Part shown: positions 11,431 through 45,440 of the stretch, piece after piece
How positions within the stretch are numbered: position 1 is the stretch's first letter
Layout: the number at the start of each line of letters is the position of its first letter
Assembly (NCBI GenBank): GCA_009782265.1
Contig: WRJM01000003.1
Span: forward strand, 1-50,290
Source: Oscillospiraceae bacterium
Lineage (GTDB): Bacteria; Bacillota; Clostridia; Oscillospirales; Ruminococcaceae
Length of the DNA: 50,290 bases
Direction: 5' to 3'
The notes under the pieces: model-generated
Told to the model about the DNA's origin: nothing
Databases searched by the model: none
What the model saw: the letters and a program-made list of their open reading frames with translations, nothing else
Position numbers and translations under genes: made by a program

Positions 11431-11598
11431 TTATTCGCCTGTTTCCGGACGTTCGCAGGGCTGATTCGCAACCGTACAGGAGGTTTTGCACGCGGACTGG
11501 CAGGAGGAACGGCAGTTGCCGCAGCCGCCTTTGCGCACGGATTCACGCAGGACCGGTCCGCAGATTGTTTTAATTTTTGATTTTTCTGTTGTTTTCAT
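11431..11598 (-). CDS. scfA: SCIFF-type ranthipeptide precursor
   Basis: KGGCGNCRSSCQSACKTSCTVANQPCERP next to the maturase. MKTTEKSK start chosen. Confidence 0.88.
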   Translation of the reverse strand: MKTTEKSKIKTICGPVLRESVRKGGCGNCRSSCQSACKTSCTVANQPCERPETGE

Positions 11599-11668
11599 TT
11601 TAATAACCATACCTTTCCGGAATTTTACAGGGTAAAATTCCCGTTTGAAAGATTTATCTTTCAAACAT
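11596..11668 (-). repeat. Hairpin leader, copy B (upstream of scfA)
   Basis: On minus strand: ATGTTTGAAAGATAAATCTTTCAAAC, GGAATTTTAC-CCT-GTAAAATTCC, GGTATGGTTATTAAAATG. Related to 25095-25233 and 45399-45440. Confidence 0.7.
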
Positions 11669-11722
11669 TGCTCCTTATGTCGTTTAATTTACTTTTAATA
11701 GTTATCCCTTTGCGATATATTT

Positions 11723-11824
11723 TGTAGGGGCGGGGCTCGTCCCCGCCCGCTAAAGTACAGGTATATTTATATATTTCGGGCGACCGGTACTTAGCAAAGC
11801 TAAGTACATGGGTCAGCCCCTACA
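11723..11824. repeat. Paired GTAGGGGCG palindromic repeat with a nested hairpin
   Basis: TGTAGGGGCGGGGCTCGTCCCCGCCCG...CGGGCGACC[GGTACTTAGCAAAGCTAAGTACAT]GGGTCAGCCCCTACA. Confidence 0.75.
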
Positions 11825-12039
11825 TTGGGTTTTTGCAATATAGAGATAACCATCTTACTTTTATTATAACATAAAAAATAATTGTTTGCAATAAGTAAAA
11901 TTTTTCAAAAGAAAAATTTTACGGGAATATTTTCCTTTTTTTATTTTTCGGCTAAATTTACCCCTTGAAAAATCGACAAAAATATGATATACTTACTAAT
12001 GATTTTATTATTTTATTAATTAACAGCGGATATTTTTAC

Positions 12040-25062: not shown

Positions 25063-25094
25063 GAAAGGAAACTATGTATAAATTCGTTGGAGGT

Positions 25095-25233
25095 ATGTTT
25101 GAAAGATAAATCTTTCAAACCGGAATTTGTTCCTTTGCAGGTTGACTTGTCAAACTGCCACGGTCTAAAACAACGACCGTAATTTGGCTGCGCCAAACCG
25201 GAAAAATTCCAGAAAGGTATGGTTATAAATATG
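25095..25233 (+). repeat. Hairpin leader, copy A (upstream of GH115 gene), multibranched
   Basis: GTTTGAAAGAT-AA-ATCTTTCAAAC 25097-25120; GGAATTT 25122-25128 / AAATTCC 25204-25210 enclosing three hairpins; ATGGTTATAAATATG. Confidence 0.7.
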
Positions 25234-28200
25234 AAAATCAGCAAATTTAAAAAAGCAATATCCTTTATCCTTGCGGCGGTATTATTATCCCCGTTTATTT
25301 TTACGTTCAATGAGCCGATGGCGGCGGCTGATACCGCTTCCAAGGCGGGTATAGCTTTACCTCCCGTTCCCGATAAGGGCACGAAACCCGCCGACAGCGA
25401 CTTCGTTTTGGTTTATGATAAAGCGGCGGATTTATACGTTGATAGCGCGGATTGGGAGGGCGTAAAGCTTGCGCTTGCGTCCCTGCAAAGTGATATAGAG
25501 CTTGTCAGCGGGCAGAAGCCCGATATTAAAAACAACACTTCTTCCCTTTCAGATATGGCGGTGATTGTGGGTACTATCGGAAAAAGCGCGGTAATTGACG
25601 ATTTGATTAACAATGCAAAAATAAAATTAAACGTATCCGGTATTACAGGCAAATGGGAAAGTTATGTGATTGAAATTGTGGAAAATCCTGTGCCCGGCGT
25701 CAGCCGTGCTCTTGTTATCGCCGGAAGCGACAAGCGCGGGACAATTTACGGCATTTATAAAGTCAGTGAACTTATCGGGGTATCGCCGTGGGTTTGGTGG
25801 GGCGACAGTATGCCTGAGCGTAAAGGGAAATTGACTTTCGACGGAACACTCCGCATTGAACAAGGCGAACCGTCCGTGAAATACCGCGGGATATTCTTAA
25901 ACGATGAGGCGCCGAGCCTTTCCGGCTGGGCTTCAAAAAATTTCGGTTCTTTGAAAAATTCCGGCGCATCAAAAGGCTTTGACCATGAATTTTACAGCCA
26001 TGTTTTTGAATTGCTTCTGCGCCTGAAAGGCAATTATCTCTGGCCGACCATGTGGAACAATTCTTTCCATACCGACGACCCCTTGAATTCCGAACTTGCC
26101 GATACATACGGAATCGTGATGGGTACATCTCATCAGGAACACATGACCTGCGCCGATAAGGAATGGAGCTGGGACGGTAAAGGCGATTGGAATTATTTCA
26201 CCAACAAGGATAATATTTACAATTTTTGGAAAAACGGCGTTACGGTGCGTAAAAATTATGAATCCGTGCTGACGCTCGGCATGCGCGGACAGGCGGATAC
26301 AAGCATACTCGGCGCGAACGCCACGCTCGGCGACAATATGAATTTATTGGCAGATGTTCTGAAAGACCAGCGGCAGATTATTAAGGACGTGTACGGCGCG
26401 GAAAACGCCGCCCCTCAGCTTTTGGCGCTTTACAAGGAAGTTGAGGATTTTTACTACGGCGACAGCACCTACGGCAAGCTTGCCGTCCCCGACGATGTAA
26501 CATTACTGCTATGCGACGATAACTTCGGCAACGTCCGCACTTTGCCGGTTCCGGAAATGCGAAATCGTTCCGGCGGTTTCGGTATGTATTACCATTTTGA
26601 CTACAGGGGCGGACCGATTAGCTACCAGTGGATTAATCAAATCCCGCTTAATAAAATTTGGGAACAAATGACGTCCGCATATGACGCGGGTGTTGACAGA
26701 ATTTGGATAGTTAATGTCGGCGATTTAAAACCTATGGAACTGCCCATAGATTATTTCCTGAATCTTGCTTATGATTACGAAAAATGGAGCGCGCCCAATT
26801 TAACCGATACGTTCACCCGTGAATGGGCGGCGCGGGAATTCGGCGAAAAATTCGCTGACGACGCAAAGGACGTACTGAACGGCTACACCAAAATCCTCGG
26901 CGCACGCAAGGCGGAGGTCGTTCTTGCCAATCCGTCCACATTCAGCCTTACCGCCTTTGACGAAGCGAACAGGGTGATTCGGGCGTTTGAAAACGTGGTT
27001 GAAAAAGCCGAGAAAATATACAACGAACTCCCCGATTATAAAAAACCGGCGTTCTATCAGCTTGCATTATATCCGGCGCGTGCTTCCATGAATGTGTATA
27101 AAACCGGCATTTACGCCGCGTGGAGCTTGTTCTTGGCAAAAGAAAACCTCCCCGCCGCCAACGAATACGCTAAGCTTGCGGAAGCGGCATTTGAAGCGGA
27201 TAAGGCGGATATGGAGTATTACAATAAAATGCTTTCAAGCGGTAAATGGGATGGGATTATGCGCCAAAATCACATCGGATATACCACATGGAACAGCCCG
27301 TCCAACTCCGTCGTAGCGGACAGAATGTTCGATACCGGTTCTGTAAACCCTCTGGACGGCTCGGAGCTTGCCGTGCGTGTGCAGAACAGTGATGTGATTA
27401 TCAGAGGCGGTAAAACAGAATTAGATGATTTTTCAAACCTCAGTCAGCAGAACAGATACTTTGATATTTTCAACGGCAAAGCCCTGCCGTTTGAGTTTAC
27501 GGTAAAATCAAGCGCGGACTGGGTGAAAATTTCTGAAAACAGCGGTGTTTGTATCAGCCAAAAACGAATCGGCGTTTCGGTTGACTGGAGTAAAGTTAAA
27601 TCGGATTCGTCGGCAATAATCACTGTTTCGGGTACGGGTCAAAGCATAGAAATCGCCGTAAACGCTGAGGTTTTCGGAGAAGCTGTTTCGCCTGAAAAAG
27701 CTTATGTTGAAACCGACGGGACTATTTCAATCAATCCTGTAAACTACGCCGAAAACACAGCCGTAAACGCGGCAAGCTGGACGGTGATTGACGATTACGG
27801 GCGCGATAATCATTTCAGCAGTATAAAAGTTTTACCGAATCACAGAAGCTTCACAGAAAGCAGCGCGCCTTTTGTTGAATACGATTTCTACGTTCAGAAC
27901 GAGGGCGAATACAATGTTAATGTTTTTATTGCCCCGACCAATAATTTCGTTCATCAAACGATTACGCCTTTAACACAGCAGCTGCGCTTCTCAGTACAGA
28001 TTGACAGCGGAGAAAAACAAACCGCAAACGGCTTGCCGAGCGGATTTAATGTAGGCGGCAACGCATGGTCGTACAGTGTAATGAATAATATGCGCATGAC
28101 CCAAACCAATCACGGCAGTCTTTCTAAAGGCTGGCATACCTTGCGTATTTTTGCAATTGACCCCGGCGTTGTGATTCAAAAAATCATTGTCGCTCCGGCA

Positions 28201-30000
28201 GACGCAAAACAAACAACCGTCGGGAACTCGCCGCAGACCTATCACTTTATGGATTCTTATTTCGGACCGCCCGAAAGCTTTTGGGCGGAAACATCTGATG
28301 TTGCAAAGCCGTATCCGGAGTTGGACGCGGGGATTCAGCAGTTCACGGCAAAGAATGTTGAAATTACCTTTGAAGCGGACGGCGTTGTGATTGAAAAAGT
28401 GACGGCTTCGGCTTCAAACGGCTCAAAGCTGACTTCGGAGCAAATCAACGCTGTCAAACAGCCGGAAAAAGAAGGGCATGATTTTGCGGGCTGGCTGACG
28501 GCGGGCGGAACGGCATTAACAGACCAAATCATTTTTACGGAAGCCGCAGCGGTTACGGCAAATTTTGTTTCGACCGATTCAGCCGGCATTACGTATTATC
28601 CCAACAACGGCACTGCCGAAAGCCATAAAACCCACGCACCCAAAGAAACCGCCGTTGTTGTTGAAAATTGTACTTTTTCCAATGATAATAAAACCTTCCT
28701 GCGGTGGAACACAAAACCCGATGACAGCGGCGATGTATACACGCCCGGCGTTGAGTATACTGCGCGTGAACCTATGGTTCTGCACGCGATTTGGACAGAC
28801 GACATGAGTGTTACCACGTTTTCAAGCGGCTTGGCGGGCAGTCTTGCCGATAAAGCGTTTGACGGCAGCCAAGGCACTTCGTGGAAAACGCTCGGCAACG
28901 GCACGGAATGGGTCGAAATCGGACTTAACGGGAGCTACACCCTTGACGGTATAACGGTTGTTTTTGAAGGCGGTGCAGATAATATTGAAGCTTATCAGGT
29001 TGAAACAATGGCTTCAAACGGGCAATGGGAGCAGATGGCGTCCGGAACGGGAAGCAGTATCGGCGAAAGCGGTGAATTGCTTTTCCTGCAGGCTCTGCCG
29101 GTAACAACAAACAGAATCAAATTCAGCTTTTCTGCCAAAAACGCAGATACACCCGTTTCTGTCAGTGAAATATCGCTTGCGCCGTTTATTAACTGGGGGC
29201 TTGCCGGAAACGGCGGTATGATTACATCCGTTCCGGACGACGGCGAAGGTGAGCCGGAGGTAATGAACGACGGCGACAGGGTTGACTACAACAAACGCTG
29301 GCGAATCGACTCAAAGGAAGGCTTCACAACACCGATTACGCTTACGCTTGCGGAAAGCAAAAACATTTCGGTTGTGAATATATTCAGTATCACCGGCTTA
29401 TGGAACGAAAGCCCGCCCGATATTAAACGTGATACAACCGCAACCTCCGCGCTCGGCACAATCCGCAACCTTACGCTTGAATACACCGCGGACGGAAACG
29501 AATGGCTTCCTTTGCCGAACGGTAAAATCACCAATAATCAATATTCATGGATTTCGGTACAGCTTGACGAACCGATTGCCATGACGGGCGTCCGGTTTAC
29601 GGTTCAGGCGCAGGGCGGCAGTGAATTCAACGACGACTGGATTCGCGTGGTTCAGTTTGAAGCATTAGAGCTTGTTGACACAAACGGAATCATCAAGCTT
29701 CCCGAACTGATTGACAACGATATGAGTGTTGCGCCGACAATGACGTCCGGCTCTGACGAAGATTCAGAAACCGATAACGAAAAAGATGGTGAAAAAGACG
29801 ACGGTTTTATTATCTATATCGTTATAGGTCTTGCGGTTATGGCGGTTGTCGGGGTTAGCGCATTTGTGTTCCTGCGCATGAAAAAGAGCAAACCGGTCAA
29901 GCCTGTGCAGGAAAATGCTCAGCCGGAAACAAAAATGCAACAAAACGATATTCAACAGGAAGAAAGCGCACCGGAAGAAATACAGGAAGAAAACGAATAA
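25231..30000 (+). CDS. Glycoside hydrolase family 115-like protein (alpha-glucuronidase type), surface-anchored multidomain
   Basis: RGTIYGIYKVSELIGVSPWVWWGD, KYRGIFLNDEAPSLSGW, LKGNYLWPTMWNNSF; InlB/Flg_new-like repeats, F5/8C-like domains, C-terminal TM. Confidence 0.88.
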   Translation: MKISKFKKAISFILAAVLLSPFIFTFNEPMAAADTASKAGIALPPVPDKGTKPADSDFVLVYDKAADLYVDSADWEGVKLALASLQSDIELVSGQKPDIKNNTSSLSDMAVIVGTIGKSAVIDDLINNAKIKLNVSGITGKWESYVIEIVENPVPGVSRALVIAGSDKRGTIYGIYKVSELIGVSPWVWWGDSMPERKGKLTFDGTLRIEQGEPSVKYRGIFLNDEAPSLSGWASKNFGSLKNSGASKGFDHEFYSHVFELLLRLKGNYLWPTMWNNSFHTDDPLNSELADTYGIVMGTSHQEHMTCADKEWSWDGKGDWNYFTNKDNIYNFWKNGVTVRKNYESVLTLGMRGQADTSILGANATLGDNMNLLADVLKDQRQIIKDVYGAENAAPQLLALYKEVEDFYYGDSTYGKLAVPDDVTLLLCDDNFGNVRTLPVPEMRNRSGGFGMYYHFDYRGGPISYQWINQIPLNKIWEQMTSAYDAGVDRIWIVNVGDLKPMELPIDYFLNLAYDYEKWSAPNLTDTFTREWAAREFGEKFADDAKDVLNGYTKILGARKAEVVLANPSTFSLTAFDEANRVIRAFENVVEKAEKIYNELPDYKKPAFYQLALYPARASMNVYKTGIYAAWSLFLAKENLPAANEYAKLAEAAFEADKADMEYYNKMLSSGKWDGIMRQNHIGYTTWNSPSNSVVADRMFDTGSVNPLDGSELAVRVQNSDVIIRGGKTELDDFSNLSQQNRYFDIFNGKALPFEFTVKSSADWVKISENSGVCISQKRIGVSVDWSKVKSDSSAIITVSGTGQSIEIAVNAEVFGEAVSPEKAYVETDGTISINPVNYAENTAVNAASWTVIDDYGRDNHFSSIKVLPNHRSFTESSAPFVEYDFYVQNEGEYNVNVFIAPTNNFVHQTITPLTQQLRFSVQIDSGEKQTANGLPSGFNVGGNAWSYSVMNNMRMTQTNHGSLSKGWHTLRIFAIDPGVVIQKIIVAPADAKQTTVGNSPQTYHFMDSYFGPPESFWAETSDVAKPYPELDAGIQQFTAKNVEITFEADGVVIEKVTASASNGSKLTSEQINAVKQPEKEGHDFAGWLTAGGTALTDQIIFTEAAAVTANFVSTDSAGITYYPNNGTAESHKTHAPKETAVVVENCTFSNDNKTFLRWNTKPDDSGDVYTPGVEYTAREPMVLHAIWTDDMSVTTFSSGLAGSLADKAFDGSQGTSWKTLGNGTEWVEIGLNGSYTLDGITVVFEGGADNIEAYQVETMASNGQWEQMASGTGSSIGESGELLFLQALPVTTNRIKFSFSAKNADTPVSVSEISLAPFINWGLAGNGGMITSVPDDGEGEPEVMNDGDRVDYNKRWRIDSKEGFTTPITLTLAESKNISVVNIFSITGLWNESPPDIKRDTTATSALGTIRNLTLEYTADGNEWLPLPNGKITNNQYSWISVQLDEPIAMTGVRFTVQAQGGSEFNDDWIRVVQFEALELVDTNGIIKLPELIDNDMSVAPTMTSGSDEDSETDNEKDGEKDDGFIIYIVIGLAVMAVVGVSAFVFLRMKKSKPVKPVQENAQPETKMQQNDIQQEESAPEEIQEENE

Positions 30001-44795: not shown

Positions 44796-45124
44796 ATTAA
44801 CATTTCTTTAATTTGTTTTTGTAATAACGGAATATCAGTAGTTATTGTTTCCCAAATATCTTCCATACGTAAGGTCTGATAACCGTGCGCTGTTACATCA
44901 CGTAATCCGGAAATTGAACGCCACGGAATCGCAGAATTATTTGATTTAATATTATCAGATAGAAGTTTAACTAATTCGCCGATATTAATTAATGTCATGC
45001 AAACAGCTCTTTTAGTTTTTTCGTCATTTATAAATTTTTCATTGCTGAAATTTGTTATCATATCGGTTATAATAAATGTTTCCGATAAAATTTTATTTAA
45101 TACAGCTTCATCTCTTTTATCCAT
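44792..45124 (-). CDS. HepT-like (DUF86) protein
   Basis: IPWRSISGLRDVTAHGYQTLRMEDIWETITTDIPLL (Rx4-6H-like). Confidence 0.83.
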   Translation of the reverse strand: MDKRDEAVLNKILSETFIITDMITNFSNEKFINDEKTKRAVCMTLINIGELVKLLSDNIKSNNSAIPWRSISGLRDVTAHGYQTLRMEDIWETITTDIPLLQKQIKEMLM

Positions 45125-45401
45125 AAACTCTTACAACCTTTCCTATTTCCAAAAACGTGTCTCCCGGTAAAGGAGCATGAATTATATCAACAGAAATTTT
45201 TAATTGCGCTTCTAAATTATTCTTTATTTCCGATAACATAAATAAAGATACAGCCGGATTTTGAAACTCTATCAGTAAATCCAAATCACTTGCTTCGGTT
45301 TGCCGTCCGTCGGCATATGAACCGAAATAAGAAACGTTTTTTATCGGAAAAGTTTCCGCCGTGTTTATTATCGCTTTGCTTATTTCATCATGTGTTATCA
45401 T
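45117..45401 (-). CDS. MntA-like minimal nucleotidyltransferase
   Basis: VSYFGSYADGRQTEASDLDLLIEF (GSx10DxD). ORF opens at 45413 within the repeated leader. Confidence 0.85.
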   Translation of the reverse strand: MITHDEISKAIINTAETFPIKNVSYFGSYADGRQTEASDLDLLIEFQNPAVSLFMLSEIKNNLEAQLKISVDIIHAPLPGDTFLEIGKVVRVYG

Positions 45402-45440
45402 ATTTATAACCATTCCTGTTTGAAAGATTATTTTTAAACT
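45399..45440 (-). repeat. Hairpin leader, copy C (degenerate, upstream of MntA-like gene)
   Basis: Minus strand GTTTAAAAATAATCTTTCAAACAGGAATGGTTATAAATATG. Confidence 0.6.

Follow-up and report, generated by a model that had tools for sequence, protein, structure and literature searches.

A short hairpin element, probably mobile, lies between the Shine-Dalgarno sequence and the start codon of unrelated genes in Oscillospirales and viral contigs

RESULTS

Our analysis shows that a short hairpin-forming sequence is dispersed in front of unrelated genes, with covarying hairpins, in the sense orientation, between the Shine-Dalgarno (SD) sequence and the start codon, and that it is inserted precisely, with zero net base change. 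Very probably, this sequence is a short non-autonomous mobile element that inserts in one orientation after AA in the SD-start gap and is tolerated as selfish DNA through a putative SD that it supplies anew.

Copies in the window and their genes

The window, i.e., the whole stretch of DNA analyzed (50,290 nt), contains three copies, at the places where the initial annotation had put them, and each is confirmed in the sequence. Copy A (GTTTGAAA ... ATAA; forward strand, 25097 to 25228, with boundaries taken from filled and empty sites of relatives and from the copy alignment) precedes a GH115 gene (forward strand, 25231 to 30000; PF15979, E = 2e-138) that starts with ATG at 25231-25233 and has an alternative in-frame ATG upstream at 25219. 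The native SD of this gene (GGAGG; forward strand, 25089 to 25093) is found 5' of the inserted element, in keeping with the GA-rich peak 5 to 10 nt 5' of the insertion point in 76 copies. Hairpin 1 of copy A (forward strand, 25097 to 25120), recognized by pattern match and by covariation in other copies, is a perfect 24-nt inverted repeat, GTTTGAAAGATAAATCTTTCAAAC, identical in copies A and B; the chance expectation for it in the window with up to 3 mismatches is 0.00. Hairpin 2 (forward strand, 25122 to 25210) is predicted by RNA folding to consist of a closing stem (25122-25128/25204-25210) and three inner hairpins. Minimum-energy folding predicts the multibranched form described earlier for this copy (-41.1 kcal/mol, z = -2.99). 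The element-carried putative SD (GAAAGG; forward strand, 25212 to 25217), conserved in the copy alignment, would replace the displaced native SD.

Copy B (reverse strand, 11601 to 11666; covariance model E = 9.6e-17) has the simple form, with a predicted fold of two hairpins. Hairpin 1 lies at 11643-11666, hairpin 2 at 11619-11641, and the carried SD at 11612-11618, all on the reverse strand. It precedes scfA, which encodes a six-cysteine SCIFF peptide precursor (reverse strand, 11431 to 11598, start ATG 11596-11598; PF13165, E = 1.6e-19), and the native SD of scfA (AAGGAG; reverse strand, 11671 to 11676) can be read 5' of the copy. Copy C (reverse strand, 45404 to 45439; covariance model E = 0.287) is decayed, with a degenerate hairpin 1 (45418-45439) and no hairpin 2, as had been described, although its tail is intact. 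It precedes an MntA-like NTP_transf_2 nucleotidyltransferase gene (reverse strand, 45117 to 45401, start ATG 45399-45401; PF01909, E = 9.1e-10). The three domain matches bear out the gene identities proposed from the sequence. A GC-rich palindromic repeat (GTAGGGGCGGGGCTCGTCCCCGCCCGC ... CCCCTACA) was also seen upstream of scfA, at 11727-11830 of the window, and a similar repeat, GGTCGCCCCTACA, lies upstream of the copy at locus L017.

Architecture and folding

The copy contexts and their alignment reveal a common layout: a native SD, a short spacer whose last two bases are AA or AT, the GTTTGAAA-hairpin, a hairpin 2 of variable length, GGAAAGGNATGGTNATAA, and the start codon. The element measures about 35 to 130 nt, with a body of two or more hairpins; hairpin 1 runs GTTTGAAA...TTTCAAAC, and hairpin 2 is variable and covarying. 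Both stems covary, in that 6 pairs are altered on both sides, a number reached by none of 500 shuffles, and the pairing is lost once the partner is slid by 1 to 3 columns. Predicted folds of the copies are strong (z of about -3 to -4). No terminal inverted repeats were found in the copy alignment: the ends are GTTTGAAA... and ...GGTNATAA, with hairpin 1 situated inside the left end. The element forms a separate subfamily in each species (for example, GTTTGAAAAATCGAAGATTTTTCAAACCCGTTGTTTGTGCC... in genome G015).

Several copies hold further small sequences. Other small repeats are nested in the hairpin loops at L120 (180-800), L143 (1540-1690), and L158 (410-560), the one in L120 having long inverted ends (ATACTGATATGCAATTAAAAACCGTA...). 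An additional small hairpin stands between the element SD and ATGGTNATAA at L226, L231, L239, L242, and L276 and in the G035 copies L070 and L082; in these subfamilies, it looks as if a further insertion had entered the gap between the SD and the ATG of the element itself. At L227 and L232 (G259), the element forms tandem or nested arrays upstream of genes, one of them accC-like.

Copy number and distribution

A search for hairpin 1 that allowed up to 3 mismatches located it at about 30 distinct places in the 1.84-Mb draft genome (155 contigs) from which the window derives, and the reversed-pattern control gave 0. With a covariance model trained on 11 copies of the simple form, about 45 copies in the sense orientation are recovered from the same genome; thus, the three copies first noticed are real but are far from the genome total. 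Neither of the outcomes that the initial annotation had named as refuting its reading, three copies alone or no insertion boundary, was observed. Within the genus, the model has matches in 12 of 36 genomes (that of the window included) and, outside it, in one genome of another family. Hairpin 1 alone, as an unbiased pattern, is present in 18 of 40 genomes of the genus, with almost no matches for the reversed control. Of 394 genomes of the order searched, 8, distributed over six families, contain the exact 24-mer of hairpin 1 (control, 0). Together with a second covariance model, the 24-mer extends the element to six other families of the order, across which its distribution is patchy. One genome of another order also carries the element. 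Matches of a related pattern on named contigs belong to uncultured Oscillospiraceae-type MAGs, according to the submitters' own labels.

The 24-mer is also present in seven viral contigs, where the layout is unchanged. Searches of the short element consensus against annotated phages and plasmids, and of a 5-kb viral contig flank against phages, gave no match. At L110 (G015), a copy lies ahead of a phage portal-like gene, so that the element, judged by this context, appears to reside in prophage-like DNA as well. Viral contigs L195, L197, L200, L202, and L203 have a different hairpin leader (CTCAAAGGCAACGGTTTCATTCCGTTTTGTGCCTTGAG or similar) with the same tail, GAAAGGAATGGTNATAANNATGA, before phage-type open reading frames; it is perhaps a sister element. 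In the draft genome of the window, gene starts of the type GAAAGG..ATGGTTATAAATATG without hairpins (L003, L004, L005, and L008) are probably decayed copies. Comparison of L255 with L078 shows a copy reduced to its tail by internal deletion.

Empty sites and junctions

Orthologues were found with concatenated protein queries, and their upstream regions were then read, the comparisons being between species (MAGs). In the closest pair, G016 and G001, exact junctions were obtained at three loci (^ marks the junction): ggaggaacaa^agATGTTTCAG, ggaggtgtttaa^ATGAAAAAAGC, and gacggagga(t/c)aa^taATGAAATT. At the second of these, the empty site reads ggaggtgtttaa^ATG and the filled site reads ggaggtgtttaa, the element (GTTTGAAA...ATAA), and ATG. 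In all three pairs, the joined flanks of the filled site equal the empty site, with a length difference of 0 and no bases lost, and the element is inserted after AA, 0 to 2 nt ahead of the start codon. The three pairs show no clear target duplication, although a 2-bp AA duplication would look the same as an element that ends in AA. Contrasts between filled and empty sites were also seen against other relatives at rpmJ, recD2, rdgB, rluB, and gmk, and some insertions are common to both sister species (L132/L244). The suggestion in the initial annotation that a mobile leader had inserted at a start codon is supported by these junctions and by the dispersed, species-specific copies, which reach into viral contigs. 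The ATG that it had noted at both ends is indeed seen, but it is an effect of the junction: at the 5' end, AT is native spacer and G is the first base of the element.

Position and orientation relative to genes

Almost every copy that was read lies in the sense direction between the SD and the start codon of a gene. Among 87 distinct copies with a recognizable tail, 76 are followed, 0 to 7 nt past ATAA, by an open reading frame that has at least 60 codons or is open to the end of the locus; all 76 frames start with ATG, and the gap is exactly 2 nt in 56. The remaining 11 include the real short genes for ScfA (55 codons) and rpmJ (37 codons), plus a few chance or unclear cases. A few copies, such as those at L024, L045, and L125, have no clear long open reading frame after them, and the copy at L054 precedes rpmE, which starts with TTG. 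The genes behind the element are unrelated (among them rpmJ, rpmE, secE, cysS, gmk, hisG, hisD, rdgB, recD2, GH115, ScfA, and the phage portal-like gene). On viral contig L190, a second copy is located between the SD and the ATG of the first.

The left flanks contain a GA-rich SD and have A at position -2 in 83% and at position -1 in 79% of cases, compared with 9% for AA at the matching place in intact genes. At filled sites, 7 nt separate the G peak of the SD from the insertion point downstream, whereas in intact genes the peak stands 10 nt ahead of the ATG; by this difference, the insertion falls about 3 nt ahead of the start codon. An AA target combined with selection alone was considered as the cause of this position and was rejected, because neutral intergenic AA sites far outnumber SD-start gaps and yet hold almost no copies. 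It is therefore likely that the translation start is recognized in some way during insertion.

Carried SD, translation, and leader peptides

Insertion shifts the native SD 60 to 130 nt away from the start codon, and the 3' tail of the element (GGAAAGGNATGGTNATAA) would place another SD, in many cases together with an in-frame ATG, at the altered gene boundary. Genes that have been interrupted, essential ones included, could thus stay translatable through the carried SD, and the element could spread between bacterial and viral genes as selfish DNA that the host tolerates. Since rpmJ, secE, cysS, and gmk carry the element, their expression must survive it, and the tail motif GGAAAGG/GAGGAAAGG presumably serves ribosomes as the replacement SD. 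A point against this use is the long distance from the AGG to the second ATG (about 13 nt). In the G000 copies, the carried SD is predicted to be mostly unpaired (0.71). In the G016 subfamily (14 copies), folding predictions pair the native SD with a CUCCUC of the element in 93% of cases, against 36 to 57% in controls; the old SD would then be masked and the new one exposed. Such pairing is absent from the predicted folds of G000 and G015; hence, masking is not general and, as far as the folding predictions indicate, is likely confined to one subfamily. The initial annotation had also proposed a translational on-switch, which is borne out in part only: an SD comes with the tail, and no sign of switching was seen.

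The peptides read from the leader are not conserved. The upstream ATG (MVI-x-M) is intact and in the frame of the gene in 42 of the 76 copies and out of frame or lost in the other 34; it may be used as a start in some copies, as far as the reading frames tell. MVI(N/K)M therefore does not hold as an encoded peptide, nor does MFER (followed by a stop codon) as a part of the module, the latter frame existing only where the native flank ends in AT; both are by-products of the junctions. A conserved leader peptide starting from the TTG in GTTTG was likewise rejected, as 34 stops occur at scattered positions and 17, 9, and 8 copies are open in the three frames.

DISCUSSION

Alternative explanations

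The copies could instead be leaders of a conserved cis-regulatory RNA, of riboswitch or protein-binding type, that control the translation of a set of genes and are kept for this regulation. The compensatory base changes, the strong predicted folds, the constant sense orientation before a gene, and, in the G016 subfamily, a predicted pairing that ties up the native SD but not the element SD would all fit such an RNA; however, the genes downstream (rpmJ, secE, gmk, hisD, GH115, and phage genes) share no pathway, presence differs between sister species at most loci, the subfamilies are clonal within species, and the SD pairing is missing in G000 and G015. Rfam covariance models run against the window and 12 loci matched neither a cis-regulatory family nor a group II intron core. 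We consider this explanation quite unlikely, and the RNA regulator suggested in the initial annotation is not supported, given downstream genes of no common function and the lack of an Rfam match for the element.

Other explanations concern how the element moves. Movement in trans by a Y1 transposase (IS200/IS605, RAYT), with single-stranded hairpins as its substrate, as for a REP/REPIN or PATE-like element, would agree with hairpins near both ends, no evident target duplication, strand-specific insertion, and a left target (AA) and right end (ATAA) that are short and alike. It seems very improbable nonetheless, and the Y1 transposase was rejected as the mover because the distribution of PF01797 does not follow the element: Y1_Tnp is absent from the high-copy genomes G000, G001, G015, G016, and G012 (drafts 76 to 99% complete) and is commonest in G014, a genome without the element. 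In addition, more than an AA target is needed to account for the restriction of the copies to SD-start gaps. Recognition of these gaps, along with recognition of the sense strand, would be accounted for by a retroelement or group II intron-like RNA that inserts at ribosome-bound mRNA or at SD sites by base pairing with the SD, and an anti-SD-like CUCCUC is present in some subfamilies; the G000 elements, however, have no CUCC motif, and no group II intron was matched in Rfam. Reverse transcriptase (PF00078) is absent from the element-rich G001, G032, G034, G035, and G259 and present in the element-free G005, G008, and G013, so that it too was rejected as the mover for not following the element, which leaves this route with very little probability. 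A recombinase with a 2-bp core (IS110- or IS607/serine-like) would use AA as the core common to both junctions. Filled sites of the form AA^GTTTG...ATAA^, with AA at both junctions and a net change of exactly the element, are compatible with it, and RNA guidance, if any, could explain the targeting of the SD; yet copies with AT at the left junction mostly keep AA at the right, and we regard this mechanism as unlikely. No autonomous copy or mobilizing enzyme was found among the copies examined, and the long insert-bearing copies L120 and L143 were rejected as autonomous elements, as they contain other small repeats and no transposase genes.

Implications

We therefore return to the short non-autonomous element that is tolerated through its carried SD. 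Possibly, though this is tentative, it represents a new class of mobile elements, whose integration machinery recognizes the SD-start gap on the sense strand and for which the replacement ribosome-binding site is a built-in means of tolerance. Dozens of genes per genome, essential ones included, would have had their ribosome-binding sites swapped by one element family. If that is so, a selfish element determines some of the variety of leaders and of the efficiency of translation in these bacteria, and both the annotation of start codons and the analysis of SD sequences are affected in genomes that bear it. A system that integrates at translation starts would represent a novel principle of targeting and, possibly, a tool to retune gene expression. 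The natural pairs of genes with and without the structured leader make models of SD swapping and standby sites directly testable.

Comparison with known systems

No known system that combines insertion in the SD-start gap with a carried SD was found in Rfam or in the largely open-access literature that was searched. A 2024 review of prokaryotic MITEs nowhere mentions start codons, Shine-Dalgarno sequences, or ribosome-binding sites (PMC10969869). With IS200/IS605, IS110, and IS607, the element shares target specificity without classical target duplication; it differs in having no transposase and in its target, the SD-start gap, and Y1 is absent from element-rich genomes. The TAACTGA repeats of Beggiatoaceae and Cyanobacteria are abundant, mostly forward, and located a few nucleotides from the start codons of genes without a common function (PMC4679880), in all of which the element resembles them. 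However, they are 7-nt direct repeats that lack hairpins and show hardly any SD character, and the study demonstrates no insertion into the gap between SD and start codon (PMC4679880).

Like MITEs and the REP/REPIN, ERIC, BOX, and RUP repeats, the element is non-autonomous, multicopy, and hairpin forming and has no open reading frame of its own, and it shows the dispersed copies and polymorphic occupied and empty sites of MITEs and small mobile repeats. Those families occupy general intergenic sites in both orientations, whereas the element is in the sense orientation in the SD-start gap. From MITEs of the DDE type, it differs in lacking terminal inverted repeats, and no clear target duplication was seen; from the Y1-mobilized REP, REPIN, and PATE elements, it differs in that no Y1 transposase (PF01797) accompanies it in the five high-copy genomes named above. 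The Rickettsia palindromic elements (RPE) are short dispersed palindromes that lie in unrelated genes without inactivating them (PMC10969869). The element does not belong to them, as RPE lie in frame inside coding sequences while the element stands before the start codon and brings an SD, but it is likewise short, palindromic, and dispersed, and the host gene likewise appears to survive.
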